Of a stretch of 64,000 nucleotides of DNA, positions 50,455-60,344 are shown piece after piece. The notes under the pieces were generated by a model, which saw only the letters and a program-made list of their open reading frames with translations, searched no databases and was not told where the DNA came from. The position numbers and the translations under genes were made by a program. Position 1 is the stretch's first letter; each line of letters starts with the position of its first letter. Source of the DNA: Diacronema lutheri (lineage: Eukaryota > Haptophyta > Pavlovophyceae > Pavlovales > Pavlovaceae); contig JAGTXO010000079.1 in NCBI GenBank assembly GCA_019448385.1, forward strand, positions 36,220 through 100,219, read 5' to 3'.

Positions 50455-53400
50455 TCAGAGCGTCGAGAGGCGCACGTCGGGCAGGGGCGAGGTGGTCGAC
50501 GGGCTGCTCGACGGCACGGCGGCCGAGCGGCGCGACGGGCTGAAGTAGCCCTCCTCGCTGGCATCGGCAAATGGCATCGCGCTCGTGTTGGATGGCGCGT
50601 GGGAGGCGCGGCTTTGGCCCTCGGGCACGGCGGGCAGCACGCCCGCGGACGAGACCCAATCCGCTGAGCGGAAGCGAGGCGGATCGACCCGTTTGCCTGG
50701 GGGCGTTGCAATTGGCAACCTGTTGAAAGCGGCGAGCGCGCCGGCGCGCGTGTGCAGATGCTCCCCGCGCTCGTCGGCCGGGTCGGCCGGCGGGTCGGCG
50801 CCGAACGCTGCGATCGGGCTCGGCTGCATGGCCACGATCGGCGATGGGTGTGGCGGCGCAATGGACGGCGCGACGAGCGTCGAGCCATCGCTCGACATCC
50901 GCTCGACGCTCACGAGGCCGCGCGCGAGCGGCGAGCGCTCGGGCGAGAGCACCGCGCCAGGCGCCCACCATTCGGTCGCGACGGGTGGCGCAAAGCGCAC
51001 CCAGCTCGCAACGGCCACATCGGGCGTCCCCGCCGGCGCGCCCGTGGCGAGCTTGGGCGCAGGCCCCGCCCAGGACGCATCAGCCGAGCCCCTGTGCCCG
51101 CGCGACGACGCGCTCATGCTGCTCGCGCCGTGGCTCGCGCGCTCGCTCGCGCCTGCGGACGGGCTGAAGAAGGACGACGTCGAGCCGCCGCGCTTGCCGC
51201 GCCCGCCGCCGCGCGACTGCGCGCCGGAGCTGCCGCCGCTCGTGCCGAGCGCGGCAAACATGGCGGACGGCCCCCACTGGCCTTCGTGCGCACAGGCCTT
51301 GGTCGGCGTGTCAAGGCTCGCACTGCGCCTGGCCGCGGACTCCTCCGACGGTCGCTGCGACCTGCGAATCCCCTCGTCGACTGCGTCCGACAGCTCAGTC
51401 GACTGCGCCCGGTTGCGCGCGATGACCGACGGGTGCGCGCCGGCCAGCGCGCCGTTCGCGACGCGCGCCGTGTACACGCGCCTCGCGTGCACGCTCCAGT
51501 CCTTCGAGCCGTAGGGGCTCGGAGACTTGGCGTTGAGGAAGGCGGGCCGGACCGAGCGCGAACGGCTCAGTGCGAGCAGCGGCCTGAGCTCCCGACGAAA
51601 CCACGAGTCGACGCGCGTCGAGAGATGCGCGCGCCACGTGCGGTCGCCCGCGATCCCACCCGAGCGGAACGCGTCATCGCGGCCGGCGGGCTCGGCGTGC
51701 TTGAGCCACGCGGCAGGGCGCGCGCGGCTGAGCACGTCGGCGAGCTGCGCGAGGCCCAGCTCGGCCGCAAGGTGCGCCCACACGAGCAAGTCCGACTCGG
51801 CCGACGTCGGGTCGTGCGTGAGGCCCGTGCGCTTGGCGACGGCGACCGCAACGTGCACGATCGCCGCGAGCTGCACGAAGCGTTCAAAGTGCTCGATCGA
51901 GTGATACATGGCCTCGACGCGCTGGCGCACAAGCTCAATGTCGCTCTCGTAAAAAGTGCGCGCGTCCGCAAAGCGAAAGGCGCGGATCGCCTCGACGTAG
52001 CGCGGCAGCGTCCGCTCGTTTAAAAAGAAGTCGACGCACAGCTGCACGTGCTCCGCGTCGTGCAGCACGAGGAAGAGCGCCCACTCGTACACGCACCTGC
52101 ACGCCGAGCGCAAAGGCACGCGCAGCGAGCATGGCACGCGCGCGATCGCGCGGTGGGCTCGCCGGCCGTGCGGCGCGCACGCCCCGCGCCCGTATGCCGC
52201 GGCGCGCGGGCGCGCGGCGCACCAGAGGCGCGCGAAGAAGTCCCACGTGAAGAGCACGATCATCCCCTCGCACCTGCGCACAAACTGCTCGAGCAGCGCG
52301 ATCGTCGGCACCATGATTGGGTGCTGCTGCGCGACGCAGCACTTGTCCACCCACAGCGTCGCGTCCTGCCACCGCTCGATCGGCGCCGCGCGCTGCGTCA
52401 GGCGCGCGCCATCCGCCGCCGTCGGCGGGCCGTCGCCGCGCGCGCCGTTCGCAGCGTCGAGCGCAGCGGACAGAACCGTCGTCGGCGACGTGATCGACTT
52501 TCTGCGCGCGAGGTCGATGTGCCGCCTCCGCTGCCAGACGAGGTCGCGCGCGGCAGTCGAGAGCACCGCGGCCTTCACCTCGGCAAAGTCGCACTTGGCG
52601 CCCATCAGTGCGTGCCAGTCGGTGGGCTGCTGCCACGTGTGCGAGACGAAACGGGCGGCGAACTCTGCGGGCGCCGACAGCTCGTAGTCGTCGATCGAGC
52701 CCACGTTGGTCCGCCAGAAGGTTGACGCGCGTCGCAACTTGGCCGCGTCGTCCAGCGATGCAGCCACCCTGCCGCACGGCACGGCGCGCATCAGCGCCGC
52801 GCCCGGGTCGGCGAGGCTCGGCAGCGCGCTCAGCAGCCGGTCGAGCTGGCGCAGGTGGATGTCGCGCACCAAGTCGTCGGGCCCGTCGCCGCGCCGGCTG
52901 TCAGCGTCAGTTTCGTGGGACGCGGCGCTGGAGCGCGCGCCGATCGACAGCTTGCCGAGCGGCACCCATCGCGCATTGGGAGACCTGGAAACGCTCCACG
53001 CCGACAGAGGCGAGCGCCCGGCTGGTGAGCCGGAATGCGCGCCGGCGGACCGCGCGGCCGTGTCGGGCGCAACCGCCACGCGCGCGTGGCGCGTCCACCA
53101 GCCCGCGATGATGCCCGGCGCCGGCTGCGCCCGCGGCGCTCGCTGCCCTCCGCCGCAGCACGACTCGACGAGCGCCCGGTGCCAGCCGCGCGCCATCCGC
53201 CGCTCGTGCTCCATCCGCACCGGCGCGGCCGAGCGCTCGGCCGGCGCGGCGCGGGGCGCGCCGAGCGCGCACGCCCACGTCACATCGTACCCGGCATGCG
53301 GCGCGTCGAGCCGGCGCATCTCGAGCGGCGCATCCACCTTGAGCAGCGAGACCGCGCGCAGGATGCCGACGACGAGCGGCGCGAGCAGCTCGCCGCGGAC

Positions 53401-53935
53401 CGACGCGTACCTGCGCGCGCCGGGCGGGCGAGTGCAGTGAGCGGGCGAGAGCGCGCGCGCGCGCGAGCCGATGCGAGGCGCGGTCAACAGGATATCGGTG
53501 CCCGCAGCCGCGCCCGCGCGGCGCTGCGCCGCACGAGATGACGAGCGTGCCGTCGGCGGCGCAGCCCTCGACCTTGAAGGTCGGGAACTGCGCGTCGCGG
53601 TGCGTGCGCGCGAGCGCGTGGTGCAGCGAGTTGAGGTTGCGCAGCAGGTCGTCAAGCGTCGCACCCATCGCGTCGATCATGCGCATCTGCCCCATCTCGG
53701 CGAGCCACGACACGAAGTACTCGCCAAACGCGTCGAGCGCCGCGCCGAGCTCGAGCCGGAGCGCGGCCGCGACCGCGCTCACGACCGCAAACGTCGCGGC
53801 GTCGGGGTACTGCTCGGCATCGAGGATTGCGCTTTCCTCCGTCACGCCCGCCTCGCGCAGCGCCGCCGCCCATACCGCTGCGCCGGCGGTCTCGCGCACG
53901 AAGCTGCGCAGGGCGTGGTGCACGAGCCCGTGCAT
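50455..53935 (-). CDS. H-NOX heme sensor fused to TIR-like domain, paralogue 1
   Basis: Predicted gas sensor coupled to a signalling domain; 1076 residues, exons 53535..53935, 52223..53410, 50455..52096. Residues 1-184 are H-NOX (HNOB): MHGLVHHALRSF, FGEYFVSWLAEMG, proximal His105 in NLNSLHHAL, and Tyr135-x-Ser137-x-Arg139 formed exactly across the first splice (S|YASVRG). The spacing equals that of soluble guanylate cyclase beta-1. A variable linker runs to about 360. A TIR-like domain follows: ARFVSHTWQQPTDW (about 386), LWVDKCCVAQ (about 486), EGMIVLFTWDFFARLWCVYE with Glu534 where plant TIR NADases have their catalytic Glu. Helical sequence comes next, then a Ser-rich tail of about 330 residues. 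No cyclase or kinase domain is present. Assigning the second domain to TIR is inference. Confidence 0.78.
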
Positions 53936-54978
53936 GCCCGCGATTTAACTGCCGCCGTGGAGTCCCTTGGACGTCCTGATTACTTTTACCTCAAAGGTCG
54001 TTGGCTCAACTTCCCCGAACAGGCAGATGTCGCCTGTAAGCGTCGTTAGTATTTATAGCAATACCAACAACGATGCTGATCACAGGCGGGTCAGCGGGAG
54101 GGGGGCTCACGCAGCGTCGGCCCGAAATCAGGGCGTCGACCCCGTGCACGCCGGCAGCGGGGACGGCCGGGACGGCAAGGGTGCGGCTGGACGCGGCATG
54201 GGCGGACACCCACACACGCCTAGCCACCCCTCGCCGGCCCCCGTCGGTCGCCGCCGCCGTTGCCGCGCCGGAAGCAGACGCCGTCCACACCGCCGCAGGC
54301 GTCCACATCCGCCTGGACGCCGTGAGCGGCGTGGCGGTGCGGCGGTGCCTGCCCCCGCGCCACCTGCGCACGCGAGAGCAGGAGCTGCGCGTGCCCACGC
54401 ACGGCGCACGCGGCGAGCTGGAGGCGCATGTGCCGCTCGAGCGCCGCCCGGGCGACGGCGCGCGAGGGCGCGCCCATGCGCGCCATCCACGCGTCCGCGC
54501 CCACGTGCGAGAACGTGGCGAGCAGGTCGGCGATGCCGGCCGACCACTTGCCAAACGAGCCGACAAGCAGCGCGCGGATCGGCGGGAACGAGTTGAGTCG
54601 CGCCTGCTTTGGGCCCACGTGGCCCGGCGGCATGCCGAAGAGCTCCTCGTCAAGCTGGGCGCACGCGCGCCGCCGTTCGCCGCCGACGGCCGCCGCCCGC
54701 CGCTCAGCGGCCTGGCAGCGGCGCGTGTCCGAATGGGCGTAGCGCGTGGGGCAGTACGAGATCGACTTGAGCTCGCACAGCGTCTGCACGAGTTGAGGGG
54801 CCGAGCCCGCACCGGTGAGCACAACGACGAGATCGACAGTGGGCACGCGCCGACGCCGCAGGGCGGCGCGCCCGGCCGGCGGCACGCCCATGATACGACG
54901 CTATTCTTGCGGGTCGCGCGTGCCACTCGCGACGGCGTCGCGCTCGTCGGCCGCGCGCGCGCCGGGCAGCTGGACAAT
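53936..54978 (-). mobile_element. Truncated retroelement between the two H-NOX genes (copy C)
   Basis: The minus-strand ORF 54220..54891 (223 codons) includes HVGPKQARLNSFPPIRALLV and GSFGKWSAGIADLLATFSHV, a pattern I associate with the C-terminal end of algal LINE-type polyproteins; no reverse-transcriptase catalytic motif remains. Downstream (54060..54243), the sequence GGCGGACACCCACACACGCC to CAGGCGGGTCAG is shared with 57760..57950. The end carries a degenerate palindrome of the dispersed motif (54031..54082). A 5'-truncated, dead copy is the simplest reading; family assignment is weak. Confidence 0.5.
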
Positions 54979-57423
54979 CTACGGGCGCCCACCTTCGGAC
55001 GTGCCGCTCGCGCCGCTCGCGCGTCGAGATTCGAACGCGAGGCTCGCAGCGGCGGCCCAGCCGCTTGACGAGGGCGGGCTGGGCAACGCGAACGCCACCT
55101 GGCTAGGCAGCTCGGCGCGTAGGGCGCGTGTGCGGCTCGCGTCGAGCAGCGGCCTGAGCTCGCAACCCAACCAGATGTCGACGTTCTTCATGACGTCCGC
55201 GCGCCACGACTGGTCACCCGCGATGGCTTCCGCTCGCAGCGACCCGTCGCGGCCGGCGGGCTCGGTGTGCTTGAGCCACGCGGCAGGGCGCGCGCGGCTG
55301 AGCACGTCGGCGAGCTGCGCGAGGCCCAGCTCGGCCGCAAGGTGCGCCCACACGAGCAAGTCCGACTCGGCCGACGTCGGGTCGTGCGTGAGGCCCGTGC
55401 GCTTGGCGACGGCGACCGCAACGTGCACGATCGCCGCGAGCTGCACGAAGCGTTCAAAGTGCTCGATCGAGTGATACATGGCCTCGACGCGCTGGCGCAC
55501 AAGCTCAATGTCGCTCTCGTAAAAAGTGCGCGCGTCCGCAAAGCGAAAGGCGCGGATCGCCTCGACGTAGCGCGGCAGCGTCCGCTCGTTTAAAAAGAAG
55601 TCGACGCACAGCTGCACGTCCGCGTCGTCGTGCAGCACGAGGAAGAGCGCCCACTCGTACACGCACCTGCACGCCGAGCAAAGCATGGCACGCGCAGCGA
55701 GCATGGCACGCGCGCGATCGCGCGGTGGGCTCGCCGGCCGTGCGGCGCGCACGCCCCGCGCCCGTATGCCGCGGCGCGCGGGCGCGCGGCGCACCAGAGG
55801 CGCGCGAAGAAGTCCCACGTGAAGAGCACGATCATCCCCTCGCACCTGCGCACAAACTGCTCGAGAAGCGCGATCGTCGGCACCATGATTGGGTGCTGCT
55901 GCGCGACGCAGCACTTGTCCACCCACAGCGTCGCGTCCTGCCACCGCTCGATCGGCGCCGCGCCTTGCGAGAGGCGTGCACCGACGGCGGCCTCCGCAAT
56001 GCGGCCCTCTGCTAGCCGGCGCTGCCAGACGAGGTCGCGCGCGGCCATGGAGAGCACCGCGGCCTTCACCTCAGCAAAGTCGCACTTGGCGCCCATCAGC
56101 ACATGCCAGTCGGTGGGCTGCTGCCACGTGTGCGAGACGAAACGGGCGGCGAACTCTGCGGGCGCCGACAGCTCGTAGTCGTCGATCGAGCCCACGTTGG
56201 TTCGCCAGAAGGTTGACGCGCGGCACAGCTCGGCCGCGTCGTCCAGCGATGCAGCCACCCTGCCGCACGGCACGGCGCGCATCAGCGCCGCGCCCGGGTC
56301 GGCGAGGCTCGGCAGCGCGAGCAGCAGCCGGTCGAGCTGCTTGAGCAGGCCGGGGTGCGCGCGAGGCTGCGCAGAGCTCGCGTCTTCCGCCGAGGAGGCC
56401 GCCGACGCTGCGCTCGTGCGCGCGACGATGAAGAGCTTGCGCAACGGCATCCAGCTCGTTGACGGCGCACCGGTCGTACTCAGCGGCCGGATGCGCGAGC
56501 GGGCGGCCGTCGCTCGCGCCACAACGTACGCTGCGGCCGGCGTCACGTCCGGCGCTGCGGACGGCAAGAAGCGCGTGCGGCGCGTCGACCAGGTCGAGGG
56601 TGCGTATGCTGGCTGCGCCCGCGGCGCTCGCTGCCCTCCGCCGCAGCACGACTCGACGAGCGCCCGGTGCCAGCCGCGCGCCATTCGCCGCTCGTGCTCC
56701 GTCCGAACCGGCGCGGCCGAGCGCTCGGCCGGCGCGGCACGCGGCGCGCCGAGCGCGCACGCCCACGTCACGTCGTACCCGGCATGCGGCACGTCGAGCC
56801 GGCGCATCTCGAGCGGCGCATCCACCTTGAGCAGCGAGACCGCGCGCAGGATGCCGACGACGAGCGGCGCGAGCAGCTCGCCGCGGACCGACGCGTACCT
56901 GCGCGCGCCGGGCGGGCGAGTGCAGTGAGCGGGCGAGAGCGCGCGCGCGCGCGAGCCGATGCGAGGCGCGGTCAACAGGATATCGGTGCCCGCAGCCGCG
57001 CCCGCGCGGCGCCGCGCCGCACGAGATGACGAGCGTGCCGTCGGCGGCGCAGCCCTCGACCTTGAAGGTCGGGAACTGCGCGTCGCGGTGCGTGCGCGCG
57101 AGCGCGTGGTGCAGCGAGTTGAGGTTGCGCAGCAGGTCGTCAAGCGTCGCACCCATCGCGTCGATCATGCGCATCTGCCCCATCTCGGCGAGCCACGACA
57201 CGAAGTACTCGCCAAACGCGTCGAGCGCCGCACCGAGCTCGAGCCGGAGCGCGGCCGCGACCGCGCTCACGACCGCAAACGTCGCGGCGTCGGGGTACTG
57301 CACGGCGTCGAGGATTGCGCTTTCCTCCGTCACGCCCGCCTCGCGCAGCGCCGCTGCCCACGCCGCCGCGCCGGCGGTCTCGCGCGCGAAGCTGCGCAGG
57401 GCGTGGTGCACGAGCCCGTGCAT
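54979..57423 (-). CDS. H-NOX heme sensor fused to TIR-like domain, paralogue 2
   Basis: Tandem copy of the preceding gene, 730 residues, exons 57023..57423, 55795..56898, 54979..55666, with introns at identical positions and phases. His105 and Tyr135/Ser137/Arg139 are kept, as are ARFVSHTW, LWVDKCC and RLWCVYE (Glu about 506). H-NOX and TIR-like exons and both introns are nearly identical at the DNA level to paralogue 1. The linker (about 210-300) and the segment after the VWQRR motif differ, and the long Ser-rich tail is missing; the last about 40 residues are unrelated and end beside the retroelement. Similarity begins exactly at the ATG, with unrelated upstream DNA. It is likely a functional but separately regulated duplicate; the C-terminus may have been trimmed by the insertion. 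Confidence 0.77.
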
Positions 57424-57759: not shown

Positions 57760-57952
57760 ACAGGCGGGTCAGCAGGAGGGGCGCGCACGGGGCCGAGGCT
57801 GGACAAACGGAGCGAGCGAAAGGGCGCACGCAACATCAGGCCGAAATCAGGGCGTCGACCCTGTGCACGCCGGCAGCGGGAACGGCCGGGACGGCGAGGA
57901 CGTGGCAGGACGCGTCATGGGCGGACACCCACACACGCCTAGCCACCCCTCG
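57743..57952 (-). mobile_element. Truncated element copy D (210 bp)
   Basis: 57743..57850 is identical to 32366..32473. 57840..57952 continues with similarity to 54118..54243 (retroelement copy C), ending at GCCTAGCCACCCCTCG. All three copies share one end and differ in how far they extend, the pattern of 5'-truncated non-LTR insertions with a common 3' end on the minus strand. Confidence 0.7.
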
Positions 57953-58115: not shown

Positions 58116-60344
58116 TCAATACTTGGCCTTCTTCGACGGCGGCGCCTGCGCCTTGCCGCTGCCCGGCCTCGGCGGCGCGCCCTTGCCCGGCCCGCCCGCG
58201 CCCTTTGGCGCCCCTTTTGGCGGTGCCGGCCTGGCCTGTGCCTTTTGCGCGGGCGCGCCGCCCTTCTTCTTCTTGGGCCGGTCGTCCGAGTCGTCGTCGT
58301 CGGCGCTCGCAGACTCGTCGTCGTCGCGCTTGGCCTTCTTCTTGCCCGGCTTGTCGTCGTCGAGCGCGCGCTTTCGGTCGTGCTTGACTGCCTCCTTCTC
58401 GAGCTCGTCCCAGTCCTTGCCCGACGACTCGCCCGAGTCCACCGACGCGTCGTCGTCCGAGTCGTCCGAGTCGGACGTGGAGCCAGCGTCCGAGTCGTCG
58501 TCGTCATCGTCGTCGTCATCATCGTCGCCCTCGTCATCGTCGTCGCCCGTCGGCTGGAACGACGACTCCTCGTCCTCCTCGCTCGACTCCTCGTCCTCCG
58601 AGTTGCGCTGCTCGAGGTCGAGGAAGCGCCACGAGTCGCCCTCGTAAAAGCCGCGCGGGTCGTCTCGCACCGTCTTCATGATCGCCGGCCAGTGGAGGTT
58701 GGCGACGCCCTCGTAGAACTTGATGTTGCACGAGTCGAGCCACGTCTTCACCTGGTCGAGCTGCTGCATGTTGATCGTGCCGATTTGAATCTGCGCGCGC
58801 TCAGGCAGTGGCGTGCGGTCGGGCGGGCGGGTGGGCGGGCGGGCGGGCGGGCGGACTGGAGGGGGCAGGCACGCGGCCCGGCCCGGTGGCCGCGCACGCC
58901 CGCGGGCGTCGCGCGAGCTCGCGCGCGGTGGACGCGGCGACCGCCCGCGCACCGGGTCGCGCTTGAGGTCCTTGAATACGATGACCATGTCAAAGTTCTT
59001 GAGGCCAAAGATGACGCGCTCAAAGTGCACGATCTCGATGGCGGAGATTTGCACCACCTGCGCGCTCGCACGGGATGCGAGCGGGTCGGAGAGCGCGCGG
59101 GGGTGGGTGCACAAGTCAGGGCGGACAAGGGAGAAAGAAGCGCGCGCGGCAGCAAGGCGCAGAGGGCGCTCAAATTCAAAATGCGGCACGGCGGAGAGGC
59201 GAGGCGTGCGTCGCGCGACGGGTTGGCGAGAGGGCGTCCAAAGTGCACGGCCCGCAGCCGTTGGCAGAAACGGCACCGACGGGCAGCGGTGCGTCCACCC
59301 GCACGCCGCGCGCACCAACCACGGCGGCTCGACAAGCTCGACGAGGGCGTTCACTGTGGGCATGATGAGGGACGTCGTCTTGTTCACCAGCCCGTGGAAG
59401 CCCAGCTCGCGGTACGGGATGTCAAACTCGATCTCGCCAGCCTGGAGCGACGTAGCCGCGACGGCAGCGCAAGGCGGCGGCCGCGGCGGCGACCGGCGGC
59501 GACTGAGCGGCACGCGCGCGGCAGCAGAGCGCCCGGACGCGCGGCAGCAGAGCGCCCGGACACGCCACCGCGCGGCAGCAGAGCGCCCGGACACGCGGCA
59601 GCAGAGCGCCCGGACACGCCACCGCGCGGCAGCAGAGCGCCCGGACACGCCACCGCGCGGCAGCAGAGCGCCCGGACACGCCACCGCGCGGCAGCAGAGC
59701 GCCCGGACACGCCACTACCGCATGACAAGGCTCATGGCAGAGTGCCTCGCCGCGCGGCACGTGTGCGCGCCAAGACTCGGGCGGCGAACGAGCGCGCGCG
59801 TCGCGAGCTGTAAGAGCGGCCGTCGAGCCACGGCCGCCGCGCGACACGAGCAAGCGCGCGTTCAACGCGCGCTGCACGCACTCGGCCAGGGGCGCGTGGC
59901 GGTCGGGCGGCGGCGCGCGCGCGGCGGCGGTGGCGACGACGGGGTAGCTGCGTGCGCGCACCTGGTCCTCGATCTTCTGCGCAAAGGCCTTGAACTCAGC
60001 GTTCATCCGGTTGCGCAGCGCCCGCTCACGCTGCTCCTCCTCGAGCTCGTCCGGGTCGTACCCGCCGCGCCGCGCCTGGTCGAGCGCGTACCTGCGCGCG
60101 TCGCGGGCGCGTCGCGTCCCCATAACGGCTCGATCCCCCGGATGGGACGGCAGCGGGCACCATGCGCGGCCAGCATGGCGTCCCCATGCCAGCGCGGCCC
60201 CGCACGGCACGACCCGGTGTCCACGGCACGCAAAAGCCAAGCGGCGGCGCATGGCGGCACGCTAAAGCCAAGCGGCGGCGCATGGCGGCACGCGCACGCC
60301 ACGCGCACGCGCGCGCGCGCGCGCGCGCTGCGCGGCAGGGCGCC

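Follow-up and report, generated by a model that had tools for sequence, protein, structure and literature searches.

Two adjacent genes join an H-NOX domain to a TIR/HET-like domain

We analysed a 64,000-nucleotide window of the genome of the haptophyte Diacronema lutheri (assembly GCA_019448385.1, contig JAGTXO010000079.1, positions 36,220 to 100,219 of the forward strand; coordinates below are counted from the first letter of the window), in which two genes, A and B, each encode an N-terminal H-NOX domain, the candidate heme sensor, and further along a second domain, the putative output domain, which resembles TIR and HET domains. An earlier, sequence-only reading of this DNA had placed two adjacent genes here, and our spliced models agree: both lie on the minus strand and have three exons. 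Gene A spans 54979..57423 (exons 57423-57023, 56898-55795 and 55666-54979) and encodes 730 residues, and gene B spans 50455..53935 (exons 53935-53535, 53410-52223 and 52096-50455) and encodes 1076. The H-NOX domain occupies residues 1-155 in each (56835..57423 in gene A and 53347..53935 in gene B, intron included). The core of the output domain lies at 55639..56141 in gene A, where it runs from FVSHTW to about WALFLV, as defined by gene model, alignment and family profile against PDB, and at 52069..52650 in gene B, as defined by the gene model and a weak TIR_2 match, intron 2 being included in both. The motifs FVSHTW, LWVDKCC and RLWCVYE, three blocks that had been noticed before, are indeed found in both proteins. 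The second domain had also been thought to follow H-NOX directly, which is not so: about 200 residues separate the two domains, with a variable stretch (186-330) and a conserved one (331-386).

All four introns of the pair are of the GT-AG type. Intron 1 (56899..57022 in gene A and 53411..53534 in gene B, 124 bp each) interrupts the H-NOX domain immediately ahead of the YxSxR motif, and its removal from gene A yields LVISYASVRG, which holds this motif. Intron 2 (55667..55794, 128 bp, in gene A; 52097..52222, 126 bp, in gene B) splits RLW from CVYE. Because its length in gene A is not divisible by three, retention breaks the frame and RLWCVYE requires splicing, whereas in gene B the reading frame stays open across the unspliced intron. 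Both intron positions recur in four paralogues, with lengths of 93-98 bp and 107-138 bp, and two further paralogues have the second intron only (GC-AG, 126 bp).

The fusion recurs at nine loci in the genome

The D. lutheri genome that we searched comprises 43,492,796 bases on 103 contigs, the window lying on contig C102; excerpts of the description of the published NIVA-4/92 genome give 103 contigs, 43,502,671 bp and a guanine-plus-cytosine content of 73.25% (PMC8379373). In the window this content is 71-78% in 4-kb blocks. Genome profile searches were run exon by exon, a procedure by which split domains can be missed. The six-frame search with PF07700 returned 11 matches at 10 loci, distributed over C102 (two), C97 (one), C11 (two), C28 (one), C55 (three) and C40 (one). 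At nine of these ten loci, on five contigs, a domain with FVSHxW, LWxDKxC and WCxxE blocks lies downstream of H-NOX on the same strand. Eight of the nine could be modelled in spliced form and the ninth (C55c) was read in pieces. In two members, C55a and C55b, a single open frame, 794 codons long in the former and 953 in the latter, reads through intron 2 and holds both H-NOX and output domain, and at C11b a 658-codon frame, running through the introns, contains H-NOX together with the output domain as far as RLW. The proposed fusion of H-NOX to a second domain thus holds in the sequence and extends from the two window genes to nine loci.

At the tenth locus, on C40 (L033:3260-8627), the H-NOX match is followed by further same-strand open frames matching HisKA (E 0.0063, below cut-off), HATPase_c (8.7e-11) and a receiver domain (8.2e-7, 29.6 bits versus a cut-off of 30.2), and this H-NOX protein is probably a eukaryotic hybrid histidine kinase.

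The H-NOX domain is predicted to bind NO

The sequence-only reading had recognised H-NOX domains with His105 and Tyr135-x-Ser137-x-Arg139 in the numbering of the beta-1 subunit of soluble guanylate cyclase (sGC) and had proposed a PF07700 (HNOB) profile search as a check. Residues 2-155 of both spliced proteins match this profile far beyond chance (E 8.4e-27 for A and 1.8e-28 for B), with 94.5 and 100 bits against a curated cut-off of 25.5, and H105, P118, Y135, S137 and R139 are present in both, at numbers identical to those of human sGC beta-1. The best PDB relative of the gene A domain is sGC beta-1 itself (5mnw, E 4.8e-17): both domains start at residue 1, and their first 103 residues align without gaps. 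In the paralogues C55a and C55b, YTGER stands in place of YxSxR. According to passages of PMC8738867, oxygen (O2)-binding H-NOX domains need a Tyr at the position matching sGC I145. In the alignment of gene A with sGC beta-1 this position holds a Leu and no Tyr, and we therefore infer that the heme of the fused H-NOX domains would bind NO rather than O2.

The likeness to sGC ends with the sensor. Soluble guanylate cyclase was rejected as an identity for either gene on the basis that a Pfam scan of both spliced proteins shows neither HNOBA nor a cyclase domain; the algal output is instead TIR/HET-like. Across the genome, HNOBA had no match, in a search whose control likewise passed the cut-off in no genome, and the six cyclase matches lie on contigs C5, C12, C32 and C83, none of which carries an H-NOX locus. 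Bacterial H-NOX domains offer a second comparison, as modular gas sensors with variable outputs that, in the parts of PMC8738867 available to us, act on histidine kinases or diguanylate cyclases or are fused to chemotaxis domains. The algal output differs in belonging, as we argue below, to the TIR/HET superfamily, fused and in a eukaryote, where the only kinase-type H-NOX found is that on C40. The nearest precedent in the open-licence literature is a set of Acanthamoeba H-NOX proteins, which excerpts of PMC4053784 describe as eukaryotic, not tied to a cyclase and devoid of the distal Tyr. A pairing of H-NOX with a TIR or HET domain was not found in the open-licence papers searched.

The output domain is best called a TIR/HET-superfamily domain

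An alignment of 14 family members, 3 H-NOX-fused and 11 others, has eight invariant columns, which include three of the LWxDKxC block (W, D and C) and four of RxWCxxE (R, W, C and E); a later profile comprised 17 members. When the 14-member profile was run against PDB, 13 distinct sequences were retrieved at E<=10 and all 13 are TIR proteins, with a best value of 0.0027: SIGIRR appears twice (0.0027 and 0.0033), 7xoz appears twice (0.055), and RPS4, RPP1, Roq1, IL1RAPL2 and a TLR follow at 0.16-1.1. Similarly, all four matches of the 17-member profile are TIR proteins (best 0.013). We take both 7xoz and 7crb to be TIR proteins. The corresponding gene A residue, E506 (numbered E131 in the segment used), is invariant in alignments A1 and A3 and faces the Glu of WCLDE in 7xoz.

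Among Pfam profiles at E<=5, HET matched 8 of the 14 members, TIR_2 7 and TIR 5 (best 0.007, 1.8e-4 and 0.085), and at E<=0.1 the corresponding counts among 17 members were 5, 3 and 1 (best 0.018, 6e-5 and 0.085). In six whole frames at E<=1, HET matched four and TIR_2 one, all below cut-off. Excerpts of PMC4986451 report HET as TIR-related, with homologues in Haptophyceae. The output domain stands roughly as near to HET, a cell-death domain of fungi, as it does to TIR. With plant and animal TIRs such as RPS4, RPP1, Roq1 and SIGIRR it shares the WC-x-x-E block, but its first two blocks are set apart by a long insertion. With fungal HET (PF06985) it shares the weak matches just given, but its WC-x-x-E block matches TIR proteins in PDB and it is fused to a heme sensor. 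It is therefore best called, on present similarity, a TIR/HET-superfamily domain that keeps a catalytic-type Glu.

A number of results weigh against this assignment and against the signalling role built on it. Neither window gene reaches the Pfam cut-offs for TIR or HET (PF13676, PF01582, PF06985): gene B matches TIR_2 (PF13676) with 13 bits versus 28 (E 0.15), gene A has no TIR match at all in the Pfam scan, and its domain segment matches HET with 10.8 bits versus 22.5, so that the PF01582/PF13676 search proposed earlier as a check fell short. The PDB matches are local, covering 27-57 profile positions around WCxxE, and 2 of the 13 fall below E 0.05; in SIGIRR, the best of them, the family Glu faces an Asn. 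Weak matches extend to unrelated Pfam families such as DUF1751 (two members, best 0.023). When the profile was built from H-NOX-fused domains only, four in number, it had four PDB matches at E<=10, and TIR proteins were not among them. Two hhalign comparisons of the family with six Pfam-recognised (TIR_2-matching) TIRs of the same genome were not significant, the first giving a probability of 0.1% in the expected register and the second 0.3% in another register. AlphaFold2 returned, for the gene B domain, a predicted local distance difference test (pLDDT) of 34.8 and a predicted template modelling score (pTM) of 0.20, too low to read a fold, and a canonical BB loop was not evident on inspection by eye. 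Taken together, the earlier call of a TIR domain is partly supported, at the level of the superfamily only, by the PDB matches and the aligned WCxxE Glu, and is not supported by Pfam cut-offs or hhalign.

The output domain belongs to a family that is large in this genome

With the gene A domain as query, at least 63 exon-level matches were found in the genome, and with another family member at least 152, including a tandem array of five on C48 (C48:342367-351995); these counts are lower bounds on matches, yet exceed the number of genes. Judged by them, the output-domain family is large in this genome. In 10 of 11 long open frames checked, a simple hydropathy rule predicted between four and six membrane-like segments ahead of the domain, and in the eleventh (L038) one such stretch that overlaps the domain; the same rule also flags stretches of the H-NOX and output domains themselves in some H-NOX-fused proteins. 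An open reading frame on C85 (L047, 711-3386, minus strand) combines N-terminal membrane-like segments and a TIR/HET-like domain with a C-terminal C-type lectin domain (PF00059, 4e-12), an arrangement that resembles a receptor.

Beyond the D. lutheri genome, pattern scans of viral contigs (17 and 21 pattern matches) and of bacterial and archaeal genomes (13 matches) yielded none confirmed as a relative of the output domain, and a tblastn search of phage records found no relative. A HET profile search of the D. lutheri genome gave 0 matches, as did its control everywhere. On C88 (L026) we observed another, distinct TIR-like type, whose sequence includes RLWCNFELACF (TIR_2 E 0.09).

Evolution of the fused genes

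The nine output domains fused to H-NOX group together, with 100/100 support, in a 26-row tree; the program warned of long branches, and the C55c row had been pieced together by eye. Identity between H-NOX domains parallels identity between output domains (r 0.96 over 28 pairs from eight genes, pairs that are not independent), and between the two fused subfamilies each of the two domains shows 30-36% identity, a divergence that points to an old fusion.

Ratios of nonsynonymous to synonymous substitution (dN/dS), calculated by the Nei-Gojobori method for five pairs from six genes, C55 being excluded, were 0.23-0.63 in H-NOX, 0.18-0.54 in the core, 0.45-1.05 in the linker and 0.26-0.94 after the core (four pairs where computable). 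We rejected the reading of these genes as pseudogenes on the basis that dN/dS is below 1 in H-NOX and core, the post-core stretch reaching 0.94 in one pair. Between genes A and B, dS varies by block, with 0.04 for H-NOX, 0.48 for the linker, 0.23 for the core and 0 for the stretch behind the core, and this mosaic of near-identical and diverged blocks suggests local gene conversion.

A putative NO-gated switch and its alternatives

We consider it fairly likely that the nine loci constitute a pavlovalean haptophyte family in which an N-terminal H-NOX heme sensor, a linker and a TIR/HET-superfamily output together form NO-gated signalling or cell-death switches. By analogy with sGC, NO binding would shift the H-NOX domain; the shift would pass through the linker and release or assemble the output domain, which might then act as TIR and HET modules do, as an oligomeric scaffold, an NAD (nicotinamide adenine dinucleotide)-consuming enzyme or a cell-death effector. 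Such a protein would link the known fold for NO sensing with a class of outputs typical of proteins in immunity and cell death, and the genome searches above found no gene joining H-NOX to a cyclase in this haptophyte. The recurrence of the fusion suggests an unusual use of the gas sensor, and the fused genes provide individual, testable candidates for a molecular path by which NO might lead to death or defence in phytoplankton. A bolder version, which we regard as doubtful, holds that 9 of the 10 H-NOX proteins found left cyclic-GMP signalling and became TIR/HET switches, triggered by NO, whose action is to consume NAD or to set off cell death within a lineage-expanded, receptor-like TIR/HET network; if true, NO would have a direct input to an immune or death pathway.

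How the output would act separates two of the alternatives. The H-NOX domain could gate homotypic assembly with other members of the family in this alga, many of them putatively membrane-anchored, and the output could be a non-enzymatic scaffold, an account that we hold as possible and give some tentative weight. The size of the family and the predicted membrane segments in most of the frames checked are consistent with it, and passages of PMC4986451 discuss TIR and HET domains as homotypic adaptors; the hydropathy rule is, however, the one that also flags domain stretches, and a pure scaffold would have no need of the Glu that the H-NOX-fused copies keep. That Glu is present in all eight spliced models and in the pieces of the ninth, and it is what speaks for the output being an enzyme of the TIR type, active in cleaving or cyclising NAD upon NO binding: its counterpart in 7xoz belongs to a TIR listed as an ADP-ribosyl cyclase/hydrolase, and excerpts of PMC10022894 describe a conserved Glu as needed by all TIR enzymes examined. 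Such an NADase nevertheless appears unlikely to us, given the lack of a recognisable BB loop and the missed Pfam TIR cut-off, and among ten further family members several no longer have W, C or E of WCxxE, so that the family tolerates inactive-looking copies.

The trigger and the gene structure can be questioned as well. A search for NO synthase gave no match in the genome (its control matched in 2 of 14), which tells against NO gating and would suit a heme or redox sensor of another signal, such as O2, carbon monoxide or oxidation, that drives the same output. NO can also arise from nitrate reductase, however, which counts against such a sensor. One H-NOX is reported to respond to oxidation without heme (PMC7108781), but the sGC-like residue set and the non-polar residue where O2-binding H-NOX domains carry Tyr (PMC8738867, in part) make a different signal rather improbable. 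Finally, the fusion in the window was read from genomic sequence, and neighbouring H-NOX and output genes might have been joined by annotation. We rejected this artefact, to which we assign only the slightest probability, because single open frames span both domains at C55a and C55b, and up to RLW at C11b; an arrangement that keeps its order and strand at nine loci, spread over five contigs, and the introns conserved among paralogues argue in the same direction.

Surroundings of the gene pair

Upstream of gene A (57821..57951) and of gene B (54102..54232) lie copies of a dispersed repeat of about 130 bp that are 90% identical to each other, and this repeat occurs in at least 42 places in the genome. 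An open frame upstream of gene A (58119-59714, minus strand) has matches to the FACT subunit SPT16 (Rttp106-like middle domain 5.1e-13, SPT16_C 8.1e-9).

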